From Deuterostichococcus epilithicus (Eukaryota > Chlorophyta > Trebouxiophyceae > Prasiolales > Stichococcaceae), in contig JAVTLE010000004.1 of NCBI GenBank assembly GCA_033439295.1, positions 930,012 to 994,011 of the forward strand: 64,000 nucleotides of DNA, given 5' to 3'. Shown piece by piece: positions 1,202 through 62,028 of the stretch (within the stretch, counting starts at the first letter, position 1; each line of letters begins with the position of its first letter). The translations under genes were made by a program, and so were the position numbers. The notes below the pieces were generated by a model. The model saw only the letters and a program-made list of their open reading frames with translations. It searched no databases and was not told where the DNA came from.

Positions 1202-4200
1202 ATGATGTACAAGATGGAGATGCGGGAGGATTTCACGGGCCAGGGTGGCGCCACATCAGCGTGCGTGGTCGCCTTCTCCACCGGCATCGCGGCGCTGGCG
1301 TTTGCCGACTTCCTGTCCACGGTGAGCGTCGGCTTTCAGTCGCATTCGTTCCGGCTGTTGAGCCTTTTGGCCCGGTGGCGCCAGAGAGCCGCCCTGGCTG
1401 GGCGTGCGGCTCGGCGGGCGCAGCGGCGCGCGGACGGCGCCGGCGGTGCTGGGCGCGTCTGGCGAGTCAGCATGCTGCGAGGATAAGCAGCTCGGCAACC
1501 AGCCTGGCGGCAATGGTGCCACTCCTCAGCGGCACGCGCAGCGCCCTGTGTGCCGGCGGCTCCTGTCCCAGGCACGATGAGCGGCCTTAGCGCCGCGTCG
1601 CGCCCCAAGCCGTCGGCCCCCAACGGATCCCTGCGCAAGCTTGAAGGGGCGGCTGCGCGGGGCCGCATGCGCAAGAGCAAGCTGCCCACCAATGCTGCAC
1701 TGCGCTCTCATCGGCGGCAGTCGAATGTCGGTCAAGCCAACCGCGCTATCCGTCGCCGCACAGACAGAGGATGTGCTGCTACGGAACAACTGCGCATAGG
1801 CGCCAGTCGACAGCTGTTCTAGCTGTTCTACCCTGCACTTTGTCATACGCAGAGGGTTCATGGCAGCCGTGCTTCACATGTGCGCGGGCGCCATTGCGGA
1901 GACAACATAAGAAAGAAGGAGCGGCCGCACTCCTGCGAGGGTTCTTGTGCATGCAGCCAATCGTAACAAGTGTTGCTCATTGCCGCCGCGCAGAGGGTGC
2001 AGGCGCAGCCGCGGGGGAATGTGCGCATGGGCGTCATCGCGGATGCCATCCAGGAAGGCGCCATCGCCTTCCTGCGGGCAGAGTACACCTGGCTGGCCTA
2101 CTTCGTGGCTGCCGCGGCGTTGGCGCTGGCTCTTGTCATGCGGGTGAGTGTGCTTCCCGGCCCATCGAGGGCGGTCCTGGCAGTCGGCTGCGCTTTGGCG
2201 GAGGCGGCTGGCGAGCAGGGCGGGGCGTGGGGCCGGGGCGGAAGGCCGGACGCCGCCGTTGCTGCTGTGTCTGACGCTGTGTTTCACCTGACATCAGAAC
2301 TGCTCAGTCGGTGCCTGCACGCTGTGCGAAACCCAGCTGGACGGTGGGGCTCTTGGTGACTTGCCATTTGAGCAGGCAGCATCCGCGGCAGGCGCTGGCG
2401 GGCTGGCTGGAGTGCAACTCCAGTGTGTCTTCAGAACCAGGTCAAGTCTGCATGGCATGGCGGAGTGCCGTTGGGCTGCAACCTGGCCGCCTCCCGCTGC
2501 GCAGGAGCTGGGGACGCCTGCATCTTTCATCGCAGGTGCGGGCACGTCGGCTGCCACAGGGTGGCTGGGCATGATGATCGCAGTGCGCGGCAACGTGCGG
2601 TGCGCCAATGCGGCGGTGCAGGGCCTCAACCCTGCGCTGCGCGTGGCATTCGACACAGGTGAGAGCGGCAGAGCCTTCTGCACAGCCGGATCATGCGAAC
2701 GGAACAAGGCAGTCGAGGGCACCGGCTTGCTGCACAGCCTGCACAGGTGGCCACGCTGGCGCCACATGTGCCCAATCTGGTTATCAAAACTGCTGTCGCT
2801 CATCATGCGAGGCGCACTGGCGCTGCATGGCCGGTGGCTAGCCACATTGGCCGGATGGCACCAAGCCCCCCAGCGGCTGCAGCAAGCCACAGCGGCGGGG
2901 CTGGCGGACCTGTCCCAGCCTGGCATGGCGCCCCCTGTTACTTCTTCGACCCTCATTGCTGTCGCCTACCGCAGGCACGGTGATGAGTATGCAGGTGGTA
3001 GGCCCCTCATCGACCCGTCGGGCGTGCTGCCAGTCTGGCAACCCCTGTCCCAGCGCTGACGCTGCACATTCTTCTAGTAAGCAGACTTTCGTGCACCCTC
3101 CTTCTCCCGCAGGCACAGTCATGGGCATGCTGGTGGTGGGCCTGGGCCTGATCGGCCTGTCGGGCGTGCTGGCGCTGCTGATGCACAGCGGGCTGGACGC
3201 GGTCGACTCCCTGCGCCGGCTGGCGGGCTTTGGGTTCGGCGCCTCCAGCATCGCGCTGTTCGCGCGCGTCGGCGGCGGCATCTACACCAAAGCCGCGGAC
3301 GTCGGCGCAGACCTCGTCGGCAAGGTGCAGAATGGACAAAAACACACGAGGAAATCAAACCGTATGTGTGCACGCATCGGCGGCGGAACCCGCCATGAAA
3401 GCAGCGGGCCGCATTGGCAAGGTGCGGCAAGGTGCGGCGTTCAGAATGTGCCTCGCATTGCGAGTCTGCATGATCTCGCAGCAGTGGCTGTGATGCCTGC
3501 AGCACAAGCTGCCGCGCAGCGGCGGCGCCTAAACCCTAAATAGCGGCGCGCCCCCCTGCACCAGCGCAGCTCGAGGCAGTGGTGCAGCCTGGCACGCCGG
3601 GGAGGGGTTGCCTGGAAGTTTGGTGCTAGCTTCTTTTGTTTGTTGGCGTTTGTTTAGCTGGACGAAAGGGTCACAAGGGTCCGAGGCGGCGATGCCGCTG
3701 TCGCGCTGGCCAGACCGGAACAAGGGACCCACACCAGCGAATCGCCATGAACGTCTGCCTGCAGAAACAGGCACCCTTGTTCTTACCTAATGCGTCCCAG
3801 GTGGAGGCGACCACTCTGGAGGACGCACCCCGCAACCTGGCAGGTCAATCGGCAGGGCCTTCTTTGGACTGCAGTGGACTTCTCGCACCACTCGCCTGGC
3901 GGGTTGCCATGATGAATTTTTCTTTCAATTTGAAGAATAGCAACAGCTTCTAGAATCCTTCAATCAAGAATGCTTTTTCTTATTGTTTGTTGTCAGGTGG
4001 AGGCGGGCATCCCAGAGGACGACCCGCGAAACCCGGCAGTCATCGCGGACTGCGTCGGCGACAATGTGGGCGACGTCGCCGGCATGGGCGCGGACCTCTT
4101 CGAGTCCTACGTCGGCTCCATCATCGCCGCCGCCACACTGGGGTGCGCCTTTAGGGTTTGGGTGGTGACGCCCCTGGGGTGACGTGACGGCAGCTCGGCC

Positions 4201-7200
4201 GCTTCGCGCGGCCGCCTCGCGCCGCCTCTGTGCAGTGGTTTCCATCTGACTGCACCCGGCTGCCGTCATTAGCGCAGTTGCACGGCGAAAGCGGCACCAG
4301 TGACGCGACGGCGGCTGAGCCGCAATGTGCTGGGTCATGGCAGGAGGGGTCCTCCACTGCAGGAATGTCTGTGCGGCACCCTGATCTGGCCATTGTGCTC
4401 CGTAGTCCTAGTTGGAGATGCTGGGGCACATCTTCATGCAAGGCAGCTCAGAGCTGCGAGTTCCCCTGCACAGCTGCGCCCTGCCCTCCAGCGCACGAAG
4501 ACAGGCTTGCAGCCCACCACGTGCAAGGCTGGCCTCTGCGAGCCCAGCGATCCTGCCTCGGCCCCCGCCCCGCAGCAGGCTGACGCCGACCGCTCACCGC
4601 ACCCTGCAGGATGGCGGAGCACGGGCAGCCGGGGCTGGCGCTGCCGCTTCACATCGCGGGCGCGGGAGTGGCGGCGGCGATCGTCGGCTCGCTGTTCGTG
4701 CGCACGCACGAGGGCGCCTCCCAGGCCGATCTGCTGCAGGCAAGTTGCAGGAGGGAACACAAACATCCACAGCCACAAGACGCTGGTTGCCCTGATGCTC
4801 AGACGTAAACAACTTTTCCGCACACACCGCCGGCTGCTGTTGCTGAACTGACGGCGAGGTGGGGCAGTTGACGTCCTGAGGGCGGTCTCGGCACGTCCGT
4901 GCGTGCAGCCTCTGCCACTGGTGCTTGAGAGTGCGTGAACACCGTTGTCCGACCCGGGGCGGACTTGACATACCACATGGTAGGTTGCATTTCCTGAAGC
5001 AGGCGCTCAGGACCAGGACTGGCACCACCAGCGTCATCCTGTTGCGACTCGTCTGCGACTGAACAGGCCGCAAACCGCAGGCGGCATCTGGTACTGAACC
5101 GCCTGCTGCTATGACGCAGGCGCTCAGGACAGGGACCAGCATCGCCAGCGTCGTCCTGGTGCTGGCGGCGGGTCTCATTATCCCCAACATGGGCTTCCGT
5201 GCGCCACTGGCGCTCTTCAGCTGCGTCTTCATCGGTGCGCGCCGGCTGCCACACACAGTCGATCGACTGTCCGTCAATGATCCCAGCATTGAAGCAAGCC
5301 TACGGCCGTTCACAGCCCAAGTCCATTTCGCCGTAGCGCGCGACAATCGAGTCCGATTCTATGACGAAGGTGGTGGCATGAGCATTCTAGTTAATGGCTC
5401 AGGCAACATTGTGGCTGGGTGGCAGGCTGGCTGGCTACAGCCTGAGATTGGAGGTCCTCATTAGGATGGCCACAGAGTTCGTGACCCTGTCCATAACCGA
5501 AATATTGCCCTGTATGATGTGCAGGCCTCGCTACGGGAAGCCTCATAGGGACAGCCACAGAGTATTGGACCAGCTCAGCATTCTCACCGGTGCGAGGTAT
5601 TGCAGCCGCCGCCGAGACCGGCCCCGCCACAGTCCTCATCAGGTGTGCGCCTGATGAAACTGCCAGCGCCGCCCCCTCCTTCCTGTCGTCCTCCAACGCT
5701 TCGGCAGGAGCCTGGAAAGCGAGCCTTGTGACTGTAAGCTAAGCCTTCGCTGCGGTGCCCGTCGCTGGCCCCAGATTGCTGGCCCAGATCGCTGACCCCA
5801 GGGTGCCAGTGTCCACACGCGGTCTGAGGGTCACCAGGTCAGCGAGCGGTACTTCAGGTTTGCAGGCATGAGCATGGTGTGTGCGCCTGCGCGGCAGGGG
5901 CCTGGCGGTGGGCATGTTTTCCACGCTGCCGACGATCGCGCTGATAGTTGCGGCCATCTGTGCGGCGCTGCGGCTGGGCGGCATGTACGGCGTCGCTCTG
6001 GCATCCGTCGGCATGCTGTCCACGCTGGGCGTGACGCTGGCGACCGATGCCTACGGCCCAGTGGTGGACAACGCCGGCGGCATCGCAGAGATGGCAGACA
6101 TGCCGCCGGAGGTGGGGGCCTGCTGATCTGGCTGCCAATCGTGACGCTTTCAGCAGGTGGTCGCCCCGCGCTGTGCTGGGCATGGAGCGCGGCACAGGCG
6201 TCCACGCCACACCCAGAGTCGGCGATTGCTGGAGCTGGGAGAGCTGGAGAGCTGCAAGTGCTATCTTTAATGCTGAAGCGCACATGCACGCAGCAGTGCG
6301 TAGCCATGGTGCAGCATGTGGCGGCCGCATCTGCTGTTGTCAGACTGGGTGGTTCCGTTTTCGTTTTATTCTTGAAGACTGTCTGTGTCTCGTTGAAAGA
6401 TGTCGAGCACAGCAAGCCGACTTGCAAAGGAGGTGAAAGCCAAACTTCGCACTGGCCAGCCTCACTCAGGCTGCCGAGGGCTTCAAATCATCAACATCGC
6501 GTCACAAGCTCGATGCTGTGCACAGGTGCGGCAGCGGACAGACGCGCTGGACGCGCTGGGCAATACCACGGCCGCCACTGGCAAGGGTTTTGCCATCGGC
6601 AGCGCGGTGCTGACGGCGCTGGCCCTGCTGTCGGCCTTCCAGCGGGAAGTCATCGCCGGCGGCGCCGGCGCCCTGCACGCCGACATCATTGCCGACGCAG
6701 CGGTGAGCGGGCCGCCGCAGCGTATTTCCTTTTGCTGTCTGCTGCGGTAGAGCTGTGATATACTTTTAGACCCTGAGCGTTGACATCGTCGCCGATGCGG
6801 CGGTGGGCCCGCCAGTGGGCGGACCTAGGTGTTCGAGCGTGTGTGTCCTGTGAGCGCCGCAGTCGTCGCTGCAGAGGCCGCGTCGGGGGGAGGGGCGCGG
6901 GGGGGCACAGCCGGGAATCCTGCCCTGTGCCATCCTCGGTCAGTGGTCGATTACCCTGGTGTTGTGGCCGGGTTCTTGACAAAATGCGTCTGTGCAGGTG
7001 ATGCCGGGCCTGCTGCTGGGCGGGGTGCTGCCGTTTGTGTTTTGCGGCTTCACCATGCTGGCCGTCGGCAAGGCCGCCTCGGCGGTCATCCAGGAGGTGC
7101 GAGACTTTAATGATGGAGTAGAGTGGATGTGTATTCCGGAACTCGCCAATATTGACAGGGATAAACAACACATCCAGGAGGTGCGGCGCAGCGCATAGCC

Positions 7201-13364: not shown

Positions 13365-16300
13365 TCACGCCGCAGCAGGGCCTGGGGGCAGCGGCTCGCC
13401 GGCCGCCGCCGCCGCCTGGGCAGCCGCCTTGGGCGGCGCGAGCGCCGTCGAGCGCGAATTCTTCGCAAACGCCCGCAGCACCGACGCCAGACGCTCCATG
13501 GCTGTCTCCAGTTCCTCGTCAGAGGCGGAGGCAAAGGAGATGCGCACAAAGGGGCAGGGGGTGGGCGGCCTCGGGCCTAGTGCGTGGCAGATGCGGCCTG
13601 AGGGGGACACGAAGTGTTTGTCAGGTAGTCGTCTCTACTGGAGAACAGCCTTTGGCAGCACAGCAGTCAGGCCATGGCAGGCGTAGGTGCACATGCCCTT
13701 GAATATCCTGGGAACTACACCATCTCCCGCTGCGGGCAAAGAGAGCCGGTTGGCCAGCGCCCAAAGTTCATTGAAGAAGCTCGTGGCGCCCATTGCTAGA
13801 GCTGCTCTCAGGAAAGGGTCATGCGACACGAAAGGCAGGAGCAGCATCTCACCGGGCACGAACACAACGCGGGCGTCGGCACACAGGTCCAGGATCTCGT
13901 CGGCGTCCGTGACTCCGGCGCCCAGCGCCATCCACAGGAACATGCCCGCCTGCAGGGGTGCGGGTGACGAGTCGCGGTCGTCAGAGTCGGCCGGGCATCC
14001 GCAACATGAGAAAGACCAGCAAGGGCCACAGCGACACGCCTGGGTTTTAGGGTTTTAACCCACAAGTGGATAGCGGGCCAGCTGCAGCCACATGCCTGCG
14101 CCCGTGCAAACGCAGCGCGGGCGCTGCCGGCGCCACAAAGCGCTTCCAGCGAGGGCGCTCATATACTACAAACTGGTGCCGCGCTGGCTGATAGTGCAGG
14201 ATCATCACCTGCGGCGCCAGCCAGCTGGCCAGGCCGGCCAGGTGCTTCTCGGCGGCCGCTAGCACAACGCCGGCGCGGCGCGCGTAGGAGCGCTGCATGT
14301 TGCATGCGTGCGCGCGCAGCCCGGCGCCGCCCCACGCTGCCAGCATCTCCGACACCATGACCTGCGGGAGTTTTTGGGGTTTAGGGTATGGGAGTGGAAG
14401 GTTTTAGGCGCCACCCTATGCCGCCAGCATCTCCGACACCATGAGCCTGCGCGAGAGCGGAAGCATGAGGCTGAGGCAGGCGCACCGAAACAGGCATGGT
14501 TATGTGTTCTGTTCTGTTCTGTTCTGTTCCGTTCAAAGTCGAGCCGGGCGGCCCCTGCAGTGGGGTGCCGGCATTCCTGCGGCCCCAGCGATTGTCATTG
14601 TCCCAAACAAAACCTCTCGCACTATGGAGCACACGCCCAAGGAGGGGCGGCGCTCCCAGTTTGTGACTTCCAAAGGTGTGACGCCGCCCTAACAGCACCC
14701 CAGGTTCGCCGGAGCAAGCGCAGGGCGCGTGGTGGGACCAGGCGCCGAGGGAACAGACGGTGATGCAAAACACCAGCTTTCTGGCATACAGTAGGGATAC
14801 AGAGATATAGTAGGGGGTTTAGGCTTCGGGTCCGGGAACCCGCCTGCGTGGTGGAGCAGGCGCCGAGGGATGAGCCGGTGATGCAGTACACCAGCTTCTG
14901 GATGATCGCCGGCGCGCCCGTGGCCCAGCCCAGGCGCAGCCCGGGCGCCAGGAACTTGGCGAAGCTGTCCAGCCGTACGACGCGGCCGTCCGTGTCGAGG
15001 GACAGGTATGACCGCTCCAGGGTGTCCAGGCCCCGCGCCTCGCCTGAGGGCAGGGTTTCCATGGGGGGCTGTTCAGGGGGCGGCTCAGGGGTCGCCCAGG
15101 GGGGGGAAGGGAGTGTCTGCAGCTGCTCCCGGCGGGTGCCGTGTCCACGATGGGCAGGGCGTTCATTGGAGGGTTCCGGTGTCAGCAGCATCTGTGCGGG
15201 GCCAAGGCGCATGCTGGTACGCTGCAACAGACTCGCAGCACAGCCTTCAGTAGCAACAGACAGTAGCACCGGCAAAGGCCAGGAGGACTTTTGTTCTTCG
15301 CAGTGCGAGGTGGCGCACCGGAGGCTGCGTCGGGGAATTGCAGGTAGTAGTACGGGTCGTCCTCCAGTATGACCACGTCATATTGGCGGCAGATGGCATA
15401 GATCTCCGCCTTGCGCGCCAGCGGCACCGTGGAGCCTGCGGCGGCGATCGAGATCCAGAGGTACTTTGAGCAGCTGGATGATGTTGGGTGTCGACCATCT
15501 GGCCAAAGCGAAAGTAGCACCAGGGATCCTGCAGCGGCGGATCACGAGCCGGAGCTCGCAGCATTGAGCTGTAGTGCAGGTTAGGTTAGTGTGGATGGCA
15601 GACGGCTGGCTCGGCATAGCGTGCACGTTTGAGGTGACGGACAGCGACTTTCATCCTGCAGTGGGGCTGCGACACCGCCGTGCAGTCGCGGCGGCAGGGG
15701 GCATCCATCCCACAACCTAAGGCACAGGCAAGGCTGCATGCATTCCAGGCACAAGGACCTTCACATACCATCTTGCAGCATCCAAAGGGAAGGCCCACCT
15801 GTGGGATTCTGGCCCGTGGGCACAGTGTACAGCACCCGCGGCGGGCGGCCGCCAGAGAGCTTGGCCGCCTGAGACGCCTGCTCCAGGCTCGCCGCCAGCG
15901 CCTCTGGCAGCATGCCGGCGGCGTCCATCGCCACGGGGAGGGCCTTGTAGCCGCGCAGGTTGATGGTGCCCTCCACCATGTGGGAATACGTGTACTGCTC
16001 CGTGACCATGTAGTCCCCCGCCTCCATGAGCAGCGAGCACAGCAGCTGCAGGCGGGAGCGGAGGCGGGCTTCAGTCGCGATGGTGTGTGTGTCACATAGC
16101 AGTGTCTGGCAAGGCTGCCAGCGGTCAGGCACTTGACCCTCGCTGACTTCCACTTTGGCGAGGGGAGGAGCAGCGTGACAGCCTAGCCCACATGGTGCGC
16201 ATGCTGGCACACCCTCCTGATGCAGGTTGCGGGCAAGACTGCAAGCTCCACATGCTGTCCACCTCGAGCATGGCATCAAAGCCAAGGAGCCAGTAGTGAC

Positions 16301-17785: not shown

Positions 17786-20700
17786 ATGCGGCGGTTTGCA
17801 AACACTTACAACCGGTGGAATCCTCAGTCCGAGAGGTGTATCCGTTCGCACAGGACACTTAGCGCATTGTTGGCCTCGTCCGAGGCAGCCGTCACTGCTT
17901 GTGAGGCCATGCGGAGTACGTGCCGCAGGACGATGAGCGGCCAATCAGCAGCCGAAGACTCCACCATTGCGTCGCTGCAGGTGCACAGTCAAGCCTGCGG
18001 CACCTTGCAGTGAAGAGCGATGCTGCTGCTTGCAGTCGTTCTACATTCCCTTCTTGCGTGTGATGCTGTGGATAACGGTTGGCCAGAATATCCGTCCTGG
18101 TCGCTGGTATGACTTTGAGCAACTGCGTAGCGCGCTGTCCACTCCTGCATCATGCACCGATGTGGCCACCAACGCAGAGGCATGCAAGCCCGACGTCAGA
18201 CGCTTCAGACACAAGCAGCATGCCAATGGCAAGGCAGGCAGTACACGGTGAAAAGGTCTCAGCTCAGCAATCGGCCGGCACGCCAGTCAGCTCCTGCGAC
18301 GAAGCCGCCGCACGGCCAAAGTCAGCGAAGCGGCGTGCGGCGGAGGCTCTGCTGGCATCGCGCCACGAGGCGGCGGCAGCGCAGCTGGCGCGGCCCTGGG
18401 GCTCGTCAGCGCTCGGGGGCAGCCCGTTACTGGCAGAGCGCAGCTGTGGCGGCCGCCCAGCGGCGGCGCACAGCGGCCTGGGCGGCCAGCTGCGCGGCCT
18501 GCCGCACCTCAGCAGCACTGCGAGCGACCTGGACTCCTGCAGATTCGGCGCACCCGGGGGCCACGGCACCCACGCCGTGGCACAGCTGGCGTATGACGAC
18601 GCTGCCTCAGACTCCGCAGAGGAGGACGAGCTGTCGCTGGACGGCCGCCTGGCTGCTGCCAGCGGCCTTGCCGGACAACAGCAGCTGAAAGGCGCCTCAG
18701 CAGCTACTGCCGACGGCGGCTCGTGGGCAGCGGTGCACGTGCCGGCGTGCAGACCCGACGCACTCTGCTGCAACCCGCCGGCGACGGCCGCCGCCGACAG
18801 CAGCAGTGCTAGCACCAGCCAGGCGGGCCCTGCCGCCTCAGCGGCCGCGCAGGACCACAACTGTACCGACGGCGCCAGTAGGGCCGCAATCGAGGCCGCC
18901 GTGGCGCGGGCGGCGGCGGCGGCTGCCGAGCTGCCGCCGCAGCCGCCGGCGGCACGCGCGAATGCGCCGCACTGGTGCAGCTTTCCGGTTGCGGTCCCCC
19001 ACCTCGACTGGGCGCTGCTGCTGGGCGACATGGTGCGGGCGCAGCAGCGGCAGGACGGCAGTGGTGGGGAGCCAGCCTGCGCCAGCTCTATCGAGCTGGG
19101 TCCCATCCAGGCAGGCCCTCTCGCCCCAAGCCCTCTAGCTCCAGCGCCTCGACCAAAAGCGCATTGGCGGCAGTGTGTGCGGAGCTCCGCGCAGCTCATT
19201 GGGATGCTGCTTGCGGTGGTCACCATCACGAGAGGGCATCAGGTGTTGCGGTGGTTGTGGGCCAATGTTCGGAGAAACATTGCAGCAGCAGCAGCAGCAG
19301 CAGCAGCAGTGGCGGCGGCCGCGCCTGCGACACGCTGCTGGCAGTATGCCTGCCGACCCTGCCTTGGTGGCGACCCCCAAACCCTGAACAACCTGCAGGT
19401 GCACCTGGTGGAACGGGAGGAACAGGCGGCGCCTGCGATCGCCGCGCTGCGTGCCAGCATGGCCGACCCCGTCATCGCCATCGACCTGGTACGAGGCGTC
19501 GGCAAGCTGCTGTTGCCTGCATGCGTGGCTGGCAACTTGCAGGCGTACCTTACTTTACCAGACAGCCAGTCCAGGCGTCAACGGTGCCGGGCCAGGTCAC
19601 TTGCAGCTGTCGGCGCCTGCAATTCGCAGCCACGTGGATGCTGCGCCAGCATGCAAATGTGGCGGCCAGATGTCAAGCGCGGCAAGACGCCGCGCCGACA
19701 CCGTGCGGCCTGTGTGTACTGCCGCCTACTGCAGTCCCCCGACTGGTCGTGCGCTCTGCTGCAGGAGTGGCGGCCGGACTTTGGGCGCGGCAAGATGTCG
19801 CGCGTGGCGCTGATGCAGCTGGCCTCCTCTTCGGTGGCGGTCCTGGTGCGGCCGTGCGCCCTGGACTGGCAGCTGCCGGCCTGCGTGCGGGATCTGCTCG
19901 GGTGGGTCGCACCGCCTGTAGGCACAAGACCGTGGCATGCGGTGGTTGCCTCTGGGACGAGGTCGTTCAGATCCACGCCTCCGAGCGGCGCGGAAGCTGC
20001 ACGTATATAAGCATCATGCCCTAAACCCTAAACCCTCATGCGCGCAGCGATCCGGCGGCCGTGCTGGTGGGCTTCGGCTGGGAGTCGGCAGACGAGCGGA
20101 AGATGACGCGCACCTTTGGAAAGGGCTCTGGCCGCGCCGCCTTCGGCGCCTTCTGCGACCTGCAGGTGCGCTGCCGCCGGGGTTTGAAAGATTCATGGTG
20201 TTTGCCGCTCGCCCTGCAAAGTACGGTAGCCGGGGCGCTGGCCGCGCGCCGCCCTCGGCACGTTTAGGCTTACCTGACGAAACATACCTTGAAAGGCCTT
20301 TCACAGAACATGACGAGAAGGCCTGCAGAGGGCAGGGTTCTAATTGTCGTGTCACGGCTGCTGCCCTTGACGCCTTGTGCAAGCTGCCGGGGCTCCGCAG
20401 TGTGCTCGCCCTGCAATCAGCTGTTCGCCTTGGGGTTTGGCCTCTTGATGCTCGCCGTGCAGAACCCACATCCAGTGGTCTGCTTGCGGTGGCAAAGACG
20501 CTGCACGCTCCACCGAGGGCTGGGGTCTAGAGTGGTGTTGCATCGCCCCCCTTGCGTCTCCATAATGCAGGTGGCGGTGCACGCAGAAAGTCAGTCTCGG
20601 GCCATCCTCCCAGGTTGCTCCTGGGCCTGGCACCTGCGCCAGCTGCTAGCTGAGGTGCATGGCGTTGCCAGGCGACCTCTCGTCTCTCCGCACTTCCTCT

Positions 20701-32547: not shown

Positions 32548-32586
<39 letters not shown>

Positions 32587-45968: not shown

Positions 45969-46000
<32 letters not shown>

Positions 46001-51259: not shown

Positions 51260-54200
51260 ATGTCGGCGGAAGCGCTGTCGCTGGGCGCACGCCCCGGTGA
51301 GGAGGTGCCGGCAGTCAAGGGAGATGCCGGCCTCACTGGCCCGATCCAGGTCGGTTAGCACGTCTTCCCGTGCCAGGTTGCGGCACTAGATCGTCGCTTC
51401 AGCGCGCTGGTTCTTGAGTCGGCGGTGCTGCACATTGCATGCCTGGCGCTGATTGCAATGCAGCATGCAGTCTCTCACTCCAATGTCCCTCCTCAGGTGC
51501 CGAACCGGCTGCTGATGGGGCCGGGCCCGTCCAACTCGCACCCGCGCGTGCTCGCGGCGCAGACACTGCCGATGCTGGGTGGGCGCCCGCCTTCCCACAC
51601 GCCATGCGCTTGTGCCCCCAGGGCTGCACAGCGCCACACCTTGGGAGGATCCCACCGAAAAGCCTGCTCGTGCCCTTACACAGCGTTCAGCTGGTCGTGT
51701 GCATGCACCTTCCTCCATATCCATTCATTGACAATTCCTCATTGCACAAGTGCATGGCATGCATGCAGGTCACCTCCACCCGCCGTTTCTGGCACTCATG
51801 GATGAGATCAAGGCAGGCCTGCGCTACCTGTTCCAGACGGAGTCGCCCTACACCTGCCTCATCTCCGGCACCGGTGTGTCCAAACAGCGCATCATGTTAT
51901 GGCGCAGGTTGACAGGTCGCCTTTGCTGAACGAAGTGCGCACGACTTCCTGCGACATGCTCCTGTAGCCAGGAATTATGTGTTGCAATCGACACGCCTGA
52001 GCTTCGCCGTCCTCAGGATCCTCCTCCCGTGCCAGTGCAGCAGCCTCGAACGCGCATGCTGCTGCTGCGGTCTGCTGCCGCAACAAGTGGCACTTACTGC
52101 AGTGGTCTCCAAGCCTGGCGCGCATGAGACATTGTTGCACCACAGCCAAAACAATGCCGTCCGCTTGCTGCACAGGGCACGCGGGCATGGAGGCGGCGGT
52201 CGCGAGCCTGGTTGAGCCGGGGGAGACCATTTTGGTGGGCAACACCGGCATCTGGGGCGCGCGCGCCGCCGAGCTGGCCTCCCGCTACGGAGGTGAGTCC
52301 CCAAAATTTGACAGGTCCCGTAGTGCGGCCTTCGGGCGCGCGTGCCGCCGAGCTGGCTACCGCTGCGGAGGTGCGTCAAGGCTGGACAGCGCGCTGTTGG
52401 AACGGCTATCAGGGAGAAGGCCAGCGGAAGTGGAAGCTGGCAGCAGCCTCGTGATTGTTGCGGCGTGACTCAATGCGTGCCCATCTTTGGCTGCCGCTGC
52501 TGCCTTTCATTGCTGCATAGGTTTTCCCACATGCAGCCTGCAGCTCTCGACTGCAGCTGGCCCAGCCTCCTTGCTGTTGCCTGGACGTGCGGCTACGCTG
52601 TTGTCTCGTGGCCCGGCACAGCCGCCCTGAACAAACCTGTGCGAGGGTCCCGTCCTGATGCCATCCCGACAGCCAAGGCAGTGGAATGCAAGGCGTAGCT
52701 CGGCGTTGCATGCGGACGACGTCACTGTGTGGATGTGTCCATCCCTTTTCATCCTGCAGCCGAGGAGCTGAGGGCGGAGCCCGGCGCTGCCCTCATGACA
52801 CACCTTTCCGAAGCATCACAATGATAACTTCAAGATGAAATGTGAGGATTCTCGGTTCCTGTGGCTCCTTCCCGCAGCCAAGGTGGTGGAGATCAAGGCG
52901 GAGCCCGGCGCCGCGCTCAAGACGGACGACATCAAGGCCGCGCTGCAGCAGCACAAGCCGGCGGTGCTGTTCCTGTGCCAGGGCGAGTCCTCCACCGGCG
53001 TGCAGCAGAGCCTCGCCGGTGCGCGGCTCCCAAAACTGCAGCGAAGGCACCGACCAGGCTTTGAGAGACCAGCAGCAGCATACCTGCTCTGCGGGATGTG
53101 CAGCACATGTCCGTCCGATGGGCACCGGTCGTGAGCGCTGCCGGGTGCGGGCACAAACAGTGACTCTCCCATGCCAGACGGCAGGGACGATCGCTGATGA
53201 TCCAGTCCCCTGTCCTCACGGCCGCCGCAACACGCTACTCGCCCCTGAGAGATAGCATGCATGCGGTCCCACCCACTCTGCGAGTTGGGAGGCTCGCCCC
53301 GGCTGCACAGTCAGAATGTCAGACGTCAGATGCGGTGCGAACATTTTCCCTGCCCTTGGGCAGGGGCGAGGCATGCCGCCCGAGCGCCATGCCGCCGCTG
53401 GCGGACAGCACTTGTGCTGTGCCTGTTGCTTGAACACAGAATCAACGCCACGAGCTCCTGATTCTCACTTGCACCTCCAGCTCTGCCGCCCACAGGCATG
53501 CAAACGAGGTGCTGCCGCTGGCCGGAAGCGCTCGCACTGCGCGTGCTGCAACATCGGTTTGCGCACCTGATCCTGGCTCGTACATGTGCCTTGCGGCTCG
53601 CAGGCATGGGCGAGGCGTGCAGCAAGAGCGACACACTGGTGCCGGTGGACACTCGAAGTTTCAGCTGTCCTGGAACCTGAGCCCGCCAGGGTGTGAAATA
53701 TCATGAAATTGTATGTCACCGCTTCGCAGGCATGGGCGAGGCGTGCCGCGCAACCGACACGCTGCTGCTGGTCGACAGCGTGTGCACACTCGGCGGCGCG
53801 CCGCTGTTCTGTGACGCCTGGGGCGTCGACTGCACCTACTCCGGGTCGCAAAAATGCCTCTCCGCACCGCCCGGTGAGCCGCAGGCGCGATGGCTGCCTG
53901 AGATGCGTCTGGAGCGCTACGTGTGGAACACACGGCCTTTATGCTAGGAGCGCACCCACATGTGACCTGCATTGATCTGCCGTCGGGCAGCTGTTGCATG
54001 GCCTCACCCAAGAGACGCGTCAGCGACCCCGATGCCTCCGCGGCACCTTGGCAGAGCTGCAGCAACTTGCGCCTGCCGCTGCGACTCGAGGGCGCTGCGC
54101 TTCGGTGCGCAGGCGCGGCGCCGTTCATGCTGAGTGAGCGCGCGTACGAGAAGCTCAAGAACCGCAAGAGCAAGGTCGCCTCCTGGTGGGTTTGCTCTTG

Positions 54201-56032
54201 TCGTATGGTTTCTGTGGTGACCATCAGGACCGTGATGCAGATGAGTCGGTCCTCCAGCGGGCGCTGCCCCGACAAGGCGCCGCTTGCGCACTGCGTGGTG
54301 CAGTACTGCCGCGCATCGGCCAAGGCTGAGCTGAGCTTGACCATACCCAGGTATTTCGACATGGTGGTGTGCGGGCAGTACTGGGGCTGGGAGGGCGCCG
54401 GCCGCTTTTACCACCACACCGGGCCGATTTCCGTGTGGTGAGCCCGGTCACCCCGCCAGCCTTGCGGTCATGCCCTCCGCACCACAACCTGCGTCGCTGC
54501 AGGCCGCACGGCCGACCGCATGCGGCGGCACAGTGCATCTGCCGCTCTCCAGCCAGCAGGCCCGTCCCTCCCAGCCGGCGAGCAGTGCACAGCCTCCGTC
54601 CTCGGAGCCTGCAGAGCGTGGCCTGACGCCTGGGTGCGCCCGTGCGGCAGGTACGGCATGCGCGAGGCGCTGGCCATCGCCGCGGGCGAGGGCCTGGAGG
54701 CCATGTGGGCGCGCCACCAGCAGGTGACAACTCTACAAAGTCACACAGCTGTGTCATCAGAAAACATCAAACATCGTCGTCTCTATAAACGTATGTCTTA
54801 ACGCGGTCGGACGAGCTTTGGTCCTGTCGCCGTTGGAACCTGGGGCGCGGTCAGGCCATGGCCCCCTGCCGGCCGGCCCCCACACGCATGCCCTGGGCCC
54901 CCTGCATGAGCAACGCGGCAGCGTCCACTTCCGTCCGAGACTACTTGAATCTCCCTGTGCAGCACTGAGGCGCCACCACTCTGCTCGGACGAGCACCGTC
55001 ATGGCCGGCTCCTCGTGGCCACTGTGTGACAGCTGATCGAGACGACGGCGAGCTGACCGCAAACCCTGGAACCCTAAAACCCTTTTCTGGGCGCCGCAGG
55101 TGTGCCGGCTGCTGTGGGGCGGGCTGACCTCGCTGGGGCTGCAGCCGTTTGTTGAAGACGAAGCGGACCGCCTCGCCACCGTCAACACCATCAAGGTGCG
55201 CATGGAGTCTGACTCCTGTCGTTTCTGAGGTGCCCCAAGCACACTTTGGGATCACAGGAGATGGACATTTGACTCCAAGCAGGGTGGCGGCGGCTGCGGC
55301 GGCGGTCCTGGCGTGCTCATGCTGTCCCAGTGCGGTTCCTGTTGCATGTGCTGCCGAGGCTGGCATCGCACCCTCGGGTCAGAGATGTGTGCTGCGACGC
55401 GATGTTGGCTCTCTCCAGGTGCCGGAGGGCATCGACTGGCTCAAACTCAACGGCTACGTCATGGACAAGTACCGGTGCGCAGTGCTGATGAGGCTTGTGC
55501 TGCCTCACGAACTCACTCCTGAGGAGCAGATGTTCGCTAACTCGATGCCCCGCTCGCCAGGTGCAGCCACATGCAAACGGCATCAGGCCTGTCTCCACGC
55601 AGCGCACTCAGTGCCTGGGATGCTCCGTGCGCAGGCTCGAAATTGCAGGCGGCCTGGGACCCAGCGCTGGCAAGGTGCGATGGCAAGGCACAGCTGCACA
55701 ACGTTGTTACAGTGGACCGATTATATGTGGTTGGCCCAGACCAGGTTGTGGAGATGTGCCCAGTAGTTTTTGTTGCCCATCTGCGGCTCCCTGTACCTGC
55801 CTGCGAAGGTCCTGTAGGCAGTACTGGGGTGACAGTCCCAACATACCAGTCGCCAGCCTGAGCAACTGCTGCGCCTGCAATCTCTGTCGTGCTTTCCCCG
55901 GGACAGGTGTGGCGGGTGGGCATCATGGGCTACAATGCAACACCGGCCAACGTGGCAGTCGTCATCGCGGCGCTCAAGGACGGCCTGCAGGCGCAGGGCT
56001 ACACCTTCTCCTCTGCACCCGCGCCGGCCTGA
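51260..56032 (+). CDS. AGT: Alanine-glyoxylate / serine-pyruvate aminotransferase
   Basis: PLP enzyme converting glyoxylate to glycine in photorespiration or glycolate metabolism, in peroxisomes or mitochondria. Thirteen exons give 409 codons in phase: 51260-51349, 51497-51578, 51769-51873, 52176-52292, 52878-53018, 53730-53873, 54113-54185, 54351-54437, 54651-54723, 55100-55195, 55419-55474, 55635-55674, 55907-56032. Landmarks: NRLLMGPGPSNSHPRVLAA, GHLHPPFLALMDEI, GTGHAGMEAAV, TILVGNTGIWG, FLCQGESSTGVQQSLAG, LLLVDSVCTLGG, YSGSQKCLSAPPG with the Schiff-base Lys, YHHTGPISVWYGMREAL, LEIAGGLGPSAGKVWRVGIM. Length matches the family. The C-terminus (SSAPAPA) is not an obvious PTS1 signal, so location is open. 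All exon joins agree with family order. Introns 4-5 hold several decayed exon copies. Confidence 0.96.
52330..52373 (+). repeat. Degraded copy of the 3' edge of AGT exon 52176-52292
   Basis: GCGTGCCGCCGAGCTGGCTA then CCGCTGCGGAGGTGCGTC repeats GCGCGCCGCCGAGCTGGCCT then CCCGCTACGGAGGTGAGTC from the real exon end and donor, about 76 bp downstream. Confidence 0.85.
52760..52798 (+). repeat. Degraded copy of the 5' edge of AGT exon 52878-53018
   Basis: GCAGCCGAGGAGCTGAGGGC then GGAGCCCGGCGCTGCCCTCA matches the real exon start (GCAGCCAAGGTGG, then GGAGCCCGGCGCCGCGCTCA). Confidence 0.85.
53358..53418 (+). repeat. Degraded copy 1 of the 5' edge of AGT exon 53730-53873
   Basis: GGCGAGGCATGCCGCCCGAG then GCCGCCGCTGGCGGACAGCA follows the real GGCGAGGCGTGCCGCGCAAC then GCTGCTGCTGGTCGACAGCG. 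A further weak candidate lies at 53491-53545. Confidence 0.7.
53594..53652 (+). repeat. Degraded copy 2 of the 5' edge of AGT exon 53730-53873
   Basis: CGCAGGCATGGGCGAGGCGT is identical to the real acceptor-exon junction. GACACACTGGTGCCGGTGGA then tracks GACACGCTGCTGCTGGTCGA. Confidence 0.88.
55056..55083. repeat. Telomere-like motif shortly before an acceptor
   Basis: CAAACCCTGGAACCCTAAAA then CCC ends about 17 bases before the acceptor of AGT exon 55100-55195. Confidence 0.5.
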
Positions 56033-56605
56033 TGATGCCCACACGGTCGTGGGGTTGCACGAGACACGCCATGATTCACTCGGATTGCCTTCTGCCATTT
56101 GGGTGAGAGCGCGAGCTCCACTGCAGGATTGACTGTCAGCATGACAGCAACTGCCATTTGCCGCTTCTACACGCTCTTGCGCATGCTGTTCTGGAAGCAG
56201 CAGTGACGCATAGGGAAAATCACTTGCATGGTTACTGTGGCGCACACATTACTTGTGAACACTTTGACAACCGTCTTGGGAAGCTCAGGTATTGGGTTTA
56301 GCAAGCAACCGGCATTATCTTTAGCAACCGCCAGAACTGAGGGATACCTACCAACAACTCATTCCCAAAACCCAGAAACCACGCCCAGAGAAACAATCAA
56401 TTTGCACTTTCGACACACTGAGAACACGACACGCGATGGAAGCTGCTGGAAGGCTGCCTGTATATATGCAGCCGCTCAATGCCGCATGGCAAAGCATGGC
56501 TGGTGATCCTGCAAGTCACGTCGCCTGCACCGCAATCCCCACCCTCCCCAGCCGAGGGCCTGTCGCCGTCCGTCGACCACATTCAGGAAATCCAACCAAG
56601 GCAAA
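56033..56605. other. Convergent intergenic region, AGT / ESV1
   Basis: 3' flanks of two convergent genes. Nothing else was seen. Confidence 0.6.
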
Positions 56606-59600
56606 TCACAGCGAACCGAGGCCGCCAGATTCAAATTCGTCAAGGTTGCCACGTGGCAGCGTCGGCACCTGCGCATTGACACACGCCCTATCAGTGGCAG
56701 CAATTAGCCGATGCCAGCCATTCTCACGATCTAGCAGCCGTGCCCGATCGTGCAATCAAGCAGCCAAGCAGCCACATGGCAATGTAGCAAGGCAATGCCA
56801 GCGCTCACACATGATCACCGCCGCCCCACGACATGCGCGCACGGACCGAGGGATGGTCAGTACAGAAGCCCCTACGTTTTTGAGGGTGGGCGAGTGGTCC
56901 AGCGCCATCTGGTAGGTGAAGTGCGGCACTGGGTTGTAGTAGGTGTCCATCTCCTCGCTCTGGTCCCAGTGCTCGCCTGGATGTGACATGTGAAACGTGC
57001 AGCATGCATGTAGTGCGGGTCTCAAGGTATCAGGTTTGTCCATGCCATCGGGTTGTCATAGGTGTTTCAGAGTCCCAGCTCTGGTCCCAAATGCTCGCCT
57101 GGGTACTGAACTGCTAGCATCAATGCAGGAAATGAACGACCGTTCCCAAATTAGATGCCAAACTCTAGAGCTATCTCAGGCAAGGCAAGATGGAGCATTT
57201 GCGCACAGCAGTGTCTCGGCGACACGCTGCACGAAGGTGCAGTTTGCGCATGGCACCGCAACAATGCCAAGGCTGACTGGATGGTCAGACAATGGCAAGA
57301 AGATCGAAGCTACAGATGACAGCTCGGCGAGGCTCTCAAGGCGACGGCGGCCGTACCGGTGGTGGAGTTGCCGAAGCGGCGCACCCAGCCGTTGCCAAAG
57401 TGGTCCTCACCCCACCAGCGCTGGTAGCGGTGCCCACCGCCGTCCACGCTCCACGTCTCCCCCTTCTTGCCGCCCTGCATGATGGCAAATGAAATCAAGC
57501 GGGAGGTTCGGAAGCGCAGTGCTGCACAGCGAGCTGCAACCGCCTGCCTGCCGGAGCAGTGGCGCCAGGCGCAGCAAGTAGGCTGTGTGCAGGGCAGGTC
57601 AACAGCGCTGCAGAGCGCCATGCTGTCCAAGTCCCACCAGTCAAGCGAGTTGACTCCCAGAGCCCCGCTCACCTTGCCGTCGCCAAAGTCCTCCACCCAG
57701 TTCTCGCCCCATTGCTCACTGGCGCCGCCCTCCAGCAGCCGTTCCGCCCACTGCAGGGGCGCGGGCACGGTTTCGACGTGTCAGATGCAGCCCCAGGATT
57801 CAGCATTGTTGCACGGCAAGGTGCAGCGCAGGAAGCGGCAGTCTCTGCACGATGGTTTGCAGCGCCGCTCTGAGGCGAGAGCTGACGCTGCCATTCGTTA
57901 TACCTGGCGAGGGGTGCTGCTGACGCCTCATTCACTGATACCCCATTCCACATACGAGGCAGTTCAAAGGGCATCTGTATGCCACAGGGGACTGCCGCCA
58001 GCTGGTAAGATGCCGCTATGTTGACGATCCATGTCAAGATTGGGTCTCGTGAAACACCTGTGCTGCCGCTGCCGCTGGCTTGCATTTGGGGCGGCGGAAG
58101 AGTATTGACCGAGGAGATCCACAGCAAGGTCGGCTGTCAGGGCGGGGCATTGCCTTGTCGGTGTACTTGGTGCAGCCGCCGGCGCCGTCGTAGTCCTCGC
58201 CCCAGCGCTCGTGCCATACGTTAGGGCCGTCCTTGCCCCACTTGTCTGCATACTTGTTGGCCTGGCCGCCAGCAGCGTAGTGCTCCCCCCACTTCTCCTC
58301 CCACTCGTCGCCCTGCAGCGGAATTGAAGCGTCCATGGCCTGAGTGCCCGGGTACGTACACCCGCCGTGCACCGGCGCCTGATGGCTGCCGGCTCGCTGC
58401 AGCGGCGCAGCGCCCACAGCCGCCTGCCGTGCACTGGCGGCCCTGCTCGTCGCCCTGCGGCGGGCGTGCAGTGAGCGCGTGACAACCGCTGCAGTCTGAG
58501 CAGGGCTCCGGCCTGCTCAGATGACCAGCGCAGAACCTGCAGAAGCACTGCAGGATGGCCTTGGCCAGGGATGAACAGGTGGGCTGGCGCCATTGGCATG
58601 TCTGTGCCGTGTGGGTGTGGCCTCTGCGGCCTGGTGCAGGGGATTGCGGCCCAGCAACGGCAATACAGACCTGCGAAAAATGGTACACGGCGAAAACTAA
58701 AACGGGCGTGACTCGCCTTGGCATCATGCGCCCACTTGTGGGCAGAGCGCTCCACAATGGGCTGGCCCGAGGACGTGTCAAAGGCGATGGCCTCGCGCCA
58801 GGTCTCGCGCCAGGCCGACCCGTCGGCGGCGCAGCCGCTCTTCTCCGCGCCCATCTCCCGCATGCCCGCCCAGTCGGAGGCCTCCCACCAGCGCTCCTCC
58901 CACTCCACCTGGCGACGAGGCACCCGACGCTGACGCTGTGTCCTGGTGTCAGGGCGGCAGCCGCGTTTCCCCTGCGCTCGCCTGCCACCTTCCTGCCACC
59001 AGTCGCTGGCAACCCACCAGTCCTCCCCCCCCAACTTTGCAAGGAGTCTGAAAAGCATTGCTTGGCGAATGACTTCAGTGTCCGGCTGGTGAAGAACCTT
59101 CCTGGCACCGTTCGATGCACACCCGCTGCCGCTGGCCTCCCGCTGCACCTGGGCGAGCCACAACAGCCCTCACTGGGCTGAAGCTTGTGTGGTTGTAGTT
59201 TTTGGCAACGCCGCTTGGCGTCTGCGCTCGGTTTGGCGCCTCCCCCAGCGTCCGCAACTTGAGAAGCAATCCTCATTGCGGTTTTGGGGGCTGTCAGCAC
59301 GGACATCGACGAAGTTCAATGCTGTACGCGCAGCTCGGACCTGCCTCCCGACACAAGGTCTCTGGTGATTGTGGTTTTGCCTCCAAAACCTTATTCAGGA
59401 ATCGCCCCACCGTGCCGTCGCCAGAGACCCCTCACACTTGACGGTCTGCCGCAGCCAGTGGCCGCCGGGCCGCCAGCAAAGTCTCTCCACAACAAATGAA
59501 GTTTCTCTTTCCGATGACAAAAGTGCTGGTGGAAGCAGCCACCCACCTTGCCCTCGCCGGAAACGCCACGCATGACCGTCTGCCGCAGCCAGTAGCCGTC

Positions 59601-62028
59601 GGGCCCATACTCCTCCGTGGTTGTGCGCTCGAATCTCGTGCCGTCCGCCAGCTGCCCGGCGCCATCCTCCATCTGTCGACCTGCAACGAGCGTGCGCCCA
59701 GACGAACGTGGAGCAGAACGCAGCGGGTGGGGCGGCCTGCACATCTGCATGCCTTTTGCAGCTGATGCGCCAGCAGGTTTCCAGAGGACCCAAACCCAGG
59801 GAGGCGCTGGCCTTCGCTTGATAGCATTTGCTTCCGTCGCACACACTCGCTGGCATCGCTTGCATGCGGCATCAGCTATTGCCAAAGTGGCACGATGGTG
59901 TAAATCCAGAACCCTCTCACCAAGCAGACGACACGGTCACCTCACATTGTGGCTGGGCAACAGACAGCGTCAGCTCAATCGGATAGCTTCGGTCTCATCC
60001 AAGAGCACTCGCTGATGAGCTGCACGACAGTCGTGGCAAACCCCACACCCTCTCACCGGCGGAGGAGGCGGTTGTTGTTTCCTCCGCATTTGCAGAGGTG
60101 TTGCCCAATCCGACGTGGTTTGACCTCACTCAGAGCGCCCGCTGATGGCTGATGAGGCGCACCACCCGCACGACCCGCACATCCGCACGGCCCTCTCACC
60201 GGCGGAGGATCCCACAAGCATGGGCGGCAAAACCCTCTCACCGGCAGAGGATACCGCAAGCATGGGCGGCGAAACCCTCTCACCGGCAGAGGACACGGTG
60301 GCCATCTCCTCCATGTTGCGGCTGGGCGGCGCAGCGGCGGACGTCAGCTCTATCACGCTCTGCAGCGGCGGCAGCGTTGCTGAGCGCGCCTTGGCTACGT
60401 CCTGCTCCGTCTGTGCGGCAGGATGATGCCTCGTCATCACTCATGTCACGGCCCGGCTCCCAGCGCCAAAGTCACGATCCGGTCTCAGCACGCAGTCGCA
60501 ACCGCTTGACAGCGTGTGCCTCACTGTGATGTCTCTACAGCAAAGCGGAGGATTCTGCACTGCAGAGTTCGAGGGAATAGACCCTAACGATCCCCAGGCT
60601 CACCTGTGACGCCAGGTCCAGCTGCGAGAAGACGCGCTCCGCGAAAGGCAGCGCCGGCAGCGACTGCTGCGTCGCCTGCGGCTGCAGCTGCGGCTGCGCC
60701 GCGGAGTCGCGCCTGCACAGCCACAGAGCACCGTTCGCAGGTCACCTCCAGTGGGCCCTTGTTCTCTAGCAAAGCCCTGCTCTGGAAGCAGGTGGTAGCG
60801 TTTCTCAGGTGCGCAGCCGGGATCTGTGAATGGACTGAGGTCATCTTGGATCGTCATCGCACCAGGCTCGCGAGCTCCTGAAACCCTGGAGCAGGCCCTC
60901 GACAGATGCAGTGGCTCCCCCACCATGCGGCCCGCCGCACTCGTCATGTGCAAGAGTCGAGGCCGTGCCCTGATACTGTGGAAGCAGACCAGCGGTAGGG
61001 CGACCTTGTTCACGAGAGGAACACCAAAGGCAAACGAGGTTCTCCAAAAGGAGTGCCTGTCCATGAACTGGTCGGTCCAGGCCGGCTGCGCGCCGAGGTC
61101 GTCGCCAGAGGCAGCCGGCGAGGCGGCGGCGGCGGCGCTCGAGTCCCACTCGCCGCTGGCGCCGTACCGCCCCAGCGCCTCGTGGAGCGTCGCATGCTTC
61201 GAGTCGTTCTCCCGCCGACGCGCGTCCCGCCTGTGCCGCAAGCAGCCCGATGAGCTCCGTCAGTCAGGAGGGCCCACGCATGCGGTTCGAGTCGAGTCCT
61301 CGTGCAGCGTGCCAAGTCCGTGTTTGGGGGTATGTGTGCGAGCCTGGCTCTGTGGCAGCACTTGGAGGCAAGAAGCGTTCATGTGCGCGTTGGAGCGATG
61401 GGCGTCCTTCCAGCCCTGCACAGAACGGGGGAGTAGAGCAGCCGGCACAAGAAGCGCACTTTTTGTCGGTGTAGGTGAAAACGCGCGAGGGGTCGGGCCG
61501 CGACGGCGCCCGCGCCTGCGTGTTTTGCAGCGCCGCGCGCGCCGCCTCCAACGCCGCGGTCTGCACTCCCAGACCATCGACGGTGCTTTTGAGAACGAGG
61601 GTCCACCGGCCCCGCTGTGGTCCAGACCCCCGATGCAGCTGCTGCCCGGTGCAGGTTGCTGCCTGGCCCGATGGACGCGGCGATCCGGCAGTGCCACCCG
61701 GCACTTCCAAAGGCTGGCCGTGATGTCGGAAGCCTCTTGACCAGGGAAGCCAGGCACTCCAGTGAAAGCAACTTGATCCACAGGATTCCTGAACAGGGCC
61801 ACCCACCGCTGACTTGATGACATCATCCGAAGCGCCACCATTGCCACTGCCGCCGCCGTTGCTGGTGGATTGACCCACCGGCTCAGCAGCTGGCGCCTGG
61901 ACCTTGCCACTGCTCGCATGATGCGACCCAGTCTCCGTCTGCGGCTCGGCTTCGCTCTGCGGCAGCAGCCTTGCAATGTAACCGTCGCCACATCGTCGCA
62001 CTTCGTTTTGTGCGTGCCAGTGCAGCAC
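56606..62028 (-). CDS. ESV1/LESV-like starch-granule protein (Trp-rich)
   Basis: Plastid starch protein. In plants ESV1 and LESV control starch granule structure and turnover through a Trp-rich glucan-binding sheet. Twelve exons close to 525 codons: 61807-62028, 61460-61560, 61057-61230, 60604-60712, 60284-60410, 59547-59680, 58717-58908, 58154-58312, 57673-57750, 57357-57474, 56876-56976, 56606-56668. The repeated Trp/acidic pattern is diagnostic: EWEERWWEASDWAGMREMGA, GDEWEEKWGEHYAAGGQANK, KYADKWGKDG, VWHERWGEDYDGAGGCTKYT, WGENWVEDFGDG, KKGETWSV, RWWGEDHFGNGWVRRFG, GEHWDQSEEMD and PHFTYQMAL. The ~240 residues before the Trp-rich part include an Ala-rich, charged possible coiled coil and are not recognised. 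Exon 1 does not look like a transit peptide, so a further 5' exon may exist. GC donors occur after 61057, 58717 and 58154. The exact paralogue (ESV1 or LESV) is not settled. Confidence 0.92.
57048..57105 (-). repeat. Degraded copy of the 5' edge of ESV1 exon 56876-56976
   Basis: Plus-strand GGGTTGTCATAGGTGTTTCA then CTCTGGTCCCAAATGCTCGC and CTGG follows GGGTTGTAGTAGGTGTCCAT then CTCTGGTCCCAGTGCTCGCC and TGG at the real edge (56930-56980). Upstream in transcription order. Confidence 0.85.
58989..59036 (-). repeat. Degraded copy of the 5' edge of ESV1 exon 58717-58908
   Basis: Minus strand reads EDWWVASDWW against EERWWEASDWAG in the real exon. The surrounding phase does not join the neighbouring exons, so it is read as a copy and not an exon. 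Confidence 0.65.
59400..59475 (-). repeat. Degraded copy of the 3' edge of ESV1 exon 59547-59680
   Basis: Plus-strand GTCTGCCGCAGCCAGT then GGCCGCCGGGCC matches GTCTGCCGCAGCCAGT then AGCCGTCGGGCC in the real exon (59568-59600). The preceding CCGTCGCCAGAGAC matches CCCTCGCCGGAAAC. Downstream in transcription order. Confidence 0.88.
60045..60262 (-). repeat. Three copies of an ESV1 exon 3' edge with its donor
   Basis: The plus-strand block CCCTCTCACCGGCAGAGGA (complement of exon end plus donor) at the real edge, 60275-60293, recurs at 60232-60250, 60192-60208 (CTCTCACCGGCGGAGGA) and 60051-60067. The units around 60190-60290 are about 43 bp long and nearly identical, with ACCGCAAGCATGGGCGGC between them. 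Each carries a GTGAGAGG donor on the minus strand. Confidence 0.9.

Follow-up and report, generated by a model that had tools for sequence, protein, structure and literature searches.

The closest described counterparts of the structures analyzed here come from work on intron gain and on telomere repeats lying within chromosomes. In Daphnia, new introns have been traced to the repair of staggered double-strand breaks, which leaves direct repeats, and internal staggered breaks have been proposed to lengthen young introns (PMC4202315); intron gain by break repair has also been reviewed (PMC3443670). In a case described from potato, duplication across an intron-exon boundary, in which the splice signals were copied, makes a new intron that inherits intron signals (PMC4974935). 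The interstitial telomeric sequences of mammals are described as telomere repeats, together with random sequence, inserted at double-strand breaks, with the target duplicated at 6 of 130 loci in rodents, 4 of 25 in primates and 3 of 66 in the horse (the last put down to staggered breaks); the intronic insertions, which make up 31% of the human ones, were called compatible with random placement (PMC7215372, PMC2246262). The repeat TTTAGGG is stated for the green algae Chlorella and Coccomyxa (PMC12636532). Among open-licence full texts, and in titles and the opening parts of abstracts, we found no account of systematic exon-edge copies in introns or of telomere repeats at splice sites.

The window, a stretch of 64,000 nucleotides of Deuterostichococcus epilithicus (C4:930012-994011), belongs to a genome of 46.8 Mb in 21 contigs. 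With 140 kb added to it, the sample came to 204 kb, or 0.4% of the genome, consisting of 84 kb of C4, 100 kb of C1 (C1:500001-600000, from the first base of which the C1 sample coordinates given below are counted) and 10 kb each of C12 and C16. Gene models were obtained with a self-trained HMM gene finder, which in the 204 kb yielded 469 exons and 435 introns, the latter with a median length of 233 nt, a donor consensus of CAG/GTG and an acceptor consensus of TGCAG/G (the slash marking the junction). Of the six gene labels previously assigned in the window, five are supported by Pfam matches (a V-type pyrophosphatase, two aminotransferases, a 3'-5' exonuclease and the longin domain of MON1), whereas a Pfam search with the segment labeled ESV1 returned no match; an S19e gene on the C1 sample is likewise Pfam-supported. 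The window also contains isolated single N bases at 16 positions, which are probably ambiguous base calls. The pairs of exon edge and intronic copy analyzed below number 60 at a score of at least 14, 56 with an alignment of at least 26 columns and 52 with at least 38 columns, 46 of the last having a spacer of at least 20 bp. Many tests were run; the central ones, namely those of side and strand, of placement at the junction and of simulated duplication, concern large effects.

The original prediction held that some twenty intronic segments of the window are decayed copies ("echoes") of the edge of an adjacent exon, splice site included, with copies of 5' edges lying upstream of the real exon and copies of 3' edges downstream. 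All 20 listed sites indeed have a same-strand local partner, with scores of 14.2-38.0 that exceed the best of 60 shuffles of the query, and the reverse-complement scores at the same sites (8.0-14.2) are at about the null level. The description as an exon edge copied into an intron holds for most of them, but the sites listed at 19648 and 29920 are exon-exon pairs in the gene models and that listed at 5423 is an intron-intron pair. In the 204-kb sample, at a score of at least 14, a match to the previous intron is found for 36 of 407 acceptor edges, as against 3 of 379 for the next intron, i.e., the wrong side; correspondingly, 24 of 405 donor edges match the next intron and 6 of 379 the previous one. 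Reverse-strand matches number one in each of the four edge-versus-intron tests, and random control introns match exon edges in 0.1-0.4% of cases. Because the wrong-side, reverse-strand and random-intron counts are so low, the comparison that could have undone the prediction, namely that of same-strand, same-side matches with those of the opposite strand or wrong side, came out in its favor in this 0.4% of the genome. A scan independent of gene models for local repeats 25-1000 bp apart, at a threshold of 18, returned 138 direct and 10 inverted repeats. Apart from a single echo pair on C12 and another on C16, the pairs are located on C4 and C1, and the identity of their exon parts is 68-92% (52 pairs). 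Hence, the process acting at exon edges is systematic and reaches beyond the window. The proposal that it lengthens introns fits the greater length of introns with an echo (median 387 nt, n=56) than of those without (220 nt, n=379; p 5e-13), but this difference is partly one of ascertainment, since long introns offer more room for a match.

Within the window, plus-strand echoes of 5' exon edges are found at 2966..3029 (pyrophosphatase exon at 3113; real copy 3104-3171, 79% identical), 3798..3843 (exon at 3997; real copy 3994-4039), 4995..5045 (exon at 5120; real copy 5112-5162, 82%, with eight intron nucleotides copied), 21229..21287 (exon at 21315; real copy 21312-21372) and 52764..52799 (exon at 52878; real copy 52888-52923, with a gapped alignment extending 37 nt into the intron). 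The 5' edge at 53730 is accompanied by two, a farther one at 53359..53409 (real copy 53729-53779, 78%) and a nearer one at 53598..53651 (real copy 53724-53777, 83%, six intron nucleotides copied). Echoes of 3' edges on this strand lie at 6771..6813, where the donor is included (edge 6702; real copy 6671-6713), and at 52326..52377 (edge 52292; real copy 52246-52299, seven donor-side nucleotides copied). The site listed at 5423 corresponds to a short plus-strand echo at 5456..5478 with its partner at 5541-5563, and the real exon beside it is probably a 66-nt pyrophosphatase exon at about 5525-5590 missed by the gene model. The plus-strand pair listed at 19648 spans 19642..19695 and 19750-19803, both exonic in the model.

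On the minus strand, acceptor-edge echoes occur at 14407..14455 (aminotransferase exon ending at 14361; real copy 14323-14370, 88%, nine intron nucleotides copied), 27191..27244 (real copy 27058-27111, 85-88%, again nine intron nucleotides), 57050..57102 (edge 56976; real copy 56931-56980, with a gapped alignment 37 nt into the intron) and, in the MON1 gene, 30889..30963 (real copy 30763-30844), the same MON1 edge having a second, more distant echo at 31116..31145 (real copy 30810-30839). A donor-edge echo lies at 59406..59471 (edge 59547; real copy 59542-59605, 82%). The donor-side echo listed at 14702, at 14727..14784 (exon 14892-15043; real copy 14846-14901), takes in about 46 nt of modeled intron and is an exception to the boundary rule developed below. 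The minus-strand pair listed at 29920 joins 29949..29989 to 29845-29885, both called exonic, and the feature at 60047..60293, on the same strand, is an ordinary tandem repeat that spans a donor edge, with a 42-bp array at 60191-60293 and older single copies from 60047.

Most echoes share an X-filler-X structure, in which a 20-90 bp segment is present twice around a filler unrelated to it. In 56 pairs, the distance between copies has a median of 118 bp (5-95% range 92-200), the copies reach a median of 54 nt into the exon, and the median spacer is 64.5 bp, with filler lengths falling mostly in the range of 20-140 bp. The ends of the copies lie 1-14 nt inside the intron in 32 of these pairs, inside the exon in 14 and farther into the intron in 10; thus, in 46 of 56 the copy stays within the exon or takes in at most 14 intron nucleotides. 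At acceptors, the match rate at positions -6 to -10 is 42-55%, compared with 27% for random acceptors, and past -13 it is mostly that of background; at donors an elevated rate extends to about +7 and reappears at +9/+10, after which background is reached. In a scan not seeded by exon edges, 35 of 56 pairs combine an exon source with an intron copy, and 25 of these 35 start or end at a splice junction (from 14 nt outside to 3 nt inside), as opposed to 8.0±2.4 of 35 under random placement (maximum 16 in 1000). The remaining 21 unseeded pairs comprise 10 exon-exon and 11 intron-intron rows; six of the latter represent one minisatellite and one 376-bp duplication, and one reflects a misplaced model edge.

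The filler does not resemble its surroundings. Alignment of the spacer with the flank beyond the echo scores 9.4 versus 8.9 for shuffles in 27 acceptor pairs and 9.3 versus 8.5 in 20 donor pairs, and such homology is individually notable in three acceptor and two donor pairs (5 of 47, on the intron side). Given how little residual homology there is, derivation of the spacer from a decayed intron or exon half was set aside. A mobile element or a copy from elsewhere was rejected as its source in the material searched: 41 spacers compared with the 204 kb show no dispersed copies, and four spacer-holding queries match the whole genome only at their own place. Divergent alleles or old paralogues were discarded as well, a single paralogue pair having been found, whose third-position identity is 51% as against 78% in the echoes. 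The flank upstream of acceptor echoes, between -30 and -13, is itself acceptor-like (n=27, P 0.004; n=15 for echoes that keep the AG, P 0.001), a modest effect in favor of an original site preserved in the echo and of newly added filler. At C1 sample 98648-98889 (L010:8648-8889), one exon edge has two successive echoes about 100 bp apart, and since these share a flank absent from the exon, one of them may descend from the other. Separately, C1 sample 87750-87892 (L009:7750-7892) holds an intronic minisatellite with units of about 33 bp and copies up to 100% identical.

Inspection of the substitutions provides an indication of how the echoes decay. Across 60 pairs, identity at the first, second and third codon positions is 83, 85 and 78%. 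Where a pair includes no more than 14 intron nucleotides, the 324 changed codons divide into 104 synonymous, 213 nonsynonymous and 7 stop changes (32/66/2%), against a neutral expectation, derived from the observed spectrum, of 27/71/2%, whereby synonymous changes are slightly in excess; in the ten remaining pairs, the 86 changed codons include 18 synonymous, 66 nonsynonymous and 2 stop changes. The AG is retained in 19 of 33 echoes and the GT or GC in 13 of 20, about as neutral decay would give by our own arithmetic. Apart from the slightly raised share of synonymous changes, the echoes thus resemble relics under neutral decay, and because the splice dinucleotides survive about as under neutral decay, there is no sign that the decoy splice sites envisaged in the original prediction are maintained.

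A further feature of some spacers is their resemblance to telomere repeats. A scan of the 204 kb recovered eight telomere-like tracts scoring at least 15, and three of the four best (scores 22, 19 and 18) lie inside echo spacers, at C1 sample 78455-78480, C1 sample 35931-35964 and window 14373..14408, whose echo pairs are 91, 93 and 88% identical. The last, on the minus strand between the 14407..14455 echo and its real edge, reads CCCTAAA in the sense of the gene and ties for the third score with the fourth tract, an exact telomere-type repeat at 20019..20036 on the plus strand, which is outside spacers, stops 11 nt short of the acceptor at 20048 and lacks a clear echo. Spacers occupy 4.5% of bases, and by length alone the placement of three of the four best tracts in them has a probability of about 3e-4 (our own arithmetic); for three of all eight intron tracts it is 0.009. 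Five of the eight are in introns of at least 75 nt, all 4-16 nt from a splice site, with the repeat reading CCCTAAA on the acceptor side and TTTAGGG on the donor side. Modeled introns of 51-59 nt, in which no position is far from an edge, hold the other three; two of these introns are spacers that the gene model took for introns. Two of four weaker tracts lie in mid-intron. In terms of edges, nine have a tract with TTTAGGG pointing outward and three the reverse, all three at modeled introns of 51-59 nt. A plus-strand CCCTAAA tract at 55056..55083 lies 16 nt before the acceptor at 55100, and beyond it an echo of at most 15 nt, decayed, can be read by eye. The 55-nt modeled intron on the minus strand at C1 sample 11138-11180 (L002:1138-1180) consists largely of telomere-like repeat and looks like a splice-competent minisatellite.

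The orientation of these repeats is also apparent in motif matches across the genome, where exact telomere doublets number 619 in all, terminal arrays included, and where TTTAGGG arrays at contig ends are among the matches listed. Within 0-8 nt of the donor-like AGGTG there are 13 doublets and 6 reversed, and within 0-14 nt of the acceptor-like GCAGG 25 and 10 reversed, i.e., 38 to 16 overall (p 0.004), with a few places recurring within or between the lists; farther out, there are 24 over 30 positions per motif, some of them repeats of near matches. Of the eight loci L019-L026, seven were evaluated; two of these gave the same site, which leaves six distinct sites (four modeled donors, one ambiguous and one on the opposite strand), and no flanking repeat exceeded its best shuffle (17.1 versus 17.2 at L023). 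Taken as a whole, the 48 spacers tested do not resemble telomere repeats (KS p 0.82; reversed, p 0.54), and a general telomeric origin is thus unsupported for them; a telomerase step would accordingly cover a minority of cases. Further, among the edges of the HMM models, having a telomere-like tract does not raise the frequency of echoes (1 of 9 versus 59 of 803, p 0.5), a comparison to be read with the caveat that two of the three telomeric spacers sit at mis-modeled edges.

Taken together, these observations suggest that introns grow via a repair-like process anchored at splice sites. The reading we tentatively prefer, at somewhat less than even confidence, is that exon edges suffer staggered breaks whose repair involves fill-in and filler, the simplest process to give X-filler-X on one strand, and that the product is kept because the splice site has been duplicated. 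If the staggered ends of such a break were long, both would be filled in, doubling X; filler, sometimes telomerase-made TTTAGGG repeats, would be added and the ends joined; the outer copy and the filler would then be spliced out, so that each event might add about 100 bp to the intron, and the outer copy would decay into an echo. Its starting points are the X-filler-X arrangement, the constant strand and side, the pile-up of copy ends, the near-neutral outer copy and the three telomere-like fillers; from these we infer the break, the fill-in, the involvement of telomerase and the insertion of the filler. Direct duplications flanking an intervening stretch, and a stretch unrelated to either flank in all but the few pairs noted above, are what staggered-break repair would leave. 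An insertion at an exon edge would survive selection only where it doubles the splice site in full, which would let splicing remove the outer copy and filler, and the side rule would thus follow from geometry and selection on the exon. Repair and selection together would account for strand, side, filler and decay. However, geometry and selection do not give the stop near the splice signal, and staggered breaks predict neither this stop nor the scarcity of intron-intron events. Breakage or copying seems to be confined to exons plus about 10 bp. It also counts against the mechanism that, once X had been doubled, the new acceptor would face competition from the original one.

The alternatives differ chiefly in how they deal with the missing intron half. 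The original prediction had named short tandem duplication as a candidate process, and a version of it, in which ordinary local duplications of 80-200 bp across junctions lose their intron half to drift while the exon half is constrained, would agree with the spacing of the copies, which is typical of short duplications, and with the presence of the 42-bp array in the window. When neutral decay of a fully copied unit is simulated from the measured divergence of each pair, intron homology beyond 14 nt is expected in 40±2 of 46 pairs under plain duplication but observed in 6, with about 5 expected by chance, given that unrelated intron ends reach it in 9-12% of cases; in ten young pairs it is expected in 9.9 and seen in none. 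Nor do the copies generally abut, and alignments of the spacers to the flank beyond the echo score only slightly above those of shuffles. Because the intron half is mostly uncopied and an unrelated spacer intervenes, short tandem duplication is unsupported as the main mechanism; the simulation rejects duplication with drift for most pairs, and as a general explanation we regard it as improbable. The pairs with more than 14 intron nucleotides and a spacer of at least 20 bp are near the chance rate and are hence not counted as proven tandem duplications, whereas four with a spacer under 20 (C4 1292 and 2043; C1 33369 and 80405) look like true abutting duplications that copy the intron too. A 376-bp tandem duplication at about C4 genome 928870-929638 (L012), just left of the window and about 88% identical, copies exon and intron alike and provides a true case for contrast. 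Old tandem duplications whose exon halves are rewritten by gene conversion from the real exon, so that intron halves saturate while the echo stays fresh, would account both for homology limited to the constrained region and for the two independent acceptor-like flanks. We nevertheless consider this doubtful: mosaic tracts are lacking, the longest identical runs being as expected (p 0.36, 42 pairs), which led to the rejection of mosaic conversion, and slippage between such repeats is expected to delete one copy, here the echo. Conversion is hinted at solely by mismatches being adjacent slightly more often than expected (p 0.015).

Other readings involve splicing itself, the boldest candidate for what confines breakage or copying to exons plus about 10 bp being an RNA-linked one. 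RNA-linked copying of an exon edge into the adjacent intron, with ends set by splicing-factor sites on the pre-mRNA or by breaks at the borders of mRNA-DNA hybrids, would suit the boundaries at about -10 and +7, present on both sides of exons, and the confinement to exons. Yet strict locality and a single orientation are unusual for RNA-derived insertions, and the acceptor-like flanks suggest that the echo kept the original site, so this too seems unlikely. A related proposal, to which we give similarly little weight, is splicing-guided breakage or copying of DNA at the borders of spliced RNA-DNA hybrids or at splicing-factor footprints, healed by filler or telomerase, which would place the breaks or copied ends some 10 nt upstream and 7 nt downstream of exons. 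Functional decoys or alternative exon edges under selection, as might be imagined from the AG or GT kept in some echoes, are very improbable in view of the near-neutral retention of these dinucleotides and of substitutions nearly neutral over codon positions. Finally, chance, simple repeats or an assembly artefact could draw on the isolated Ns and the few minisatellites, but is barely credible against the ratio of direct to inverted repeats, the side and strand controls and the occurrence of pairs on C4, C1, C12 and C16 at 8-32% exon divergence, which assembly errors do not give.

Intron lengthening is usually treated as diffuse; here, as counted above, the exon's own edge is recognizably duplicated at 36 of 407 acceptors and 24 of 405 donors. 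Since the copy ends cluster at the splice signal, a pattern not produced by ordinary tandem duplication, step-wise intron growth anchored at exon edges becomes directly testable, and staggered-break repair, the reading preferred here, would tie such growth to break repair and telomere repeats. If breakage were splicing-guided, introns would lengthen away from their exon edges, by about 100 bp at a step, with the echoes as growth rings.

Introner elements would add intron sequence at many loci; the spacers differ from these and from transposons in having no dispersed copies in the searches described above (41 spacers against the 204 kb, four queries against the genome). Intron gain of the Rogers type, in which a new intron is bounded by two copies, is at odds with echo introns of median 387 nt whose copies lie about 118 bp apart, a comparison in which C1 sample 35875-36022 has a doubtful gene model. 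The potato case resembles the echoes in that an intron-exon boundary is duplicated with its splice signals; however, in the present sample the intron is mostly pre-existing, the echo lies inside it and the intron context is mostly uncopied (PMC4974935). With the Daphnia introns the echoes share insertion with direct repeats, but the Daphnia repeats are shared with the adjacent exon over 4-12 bp and mark new introns, whereas those described here span 20-90 bp and are found in existing introns at exon edges (PMC4202315). The mammalian telomeric insertions are similar in having telomere repeats as the insert and a direct duplication around it; unlike these, in which duplications are a minority among the loci reported, the doublets analyzed here are enriched beside splice-like motifs and in one preferred orientation (PMC7215372, PMC2246262).
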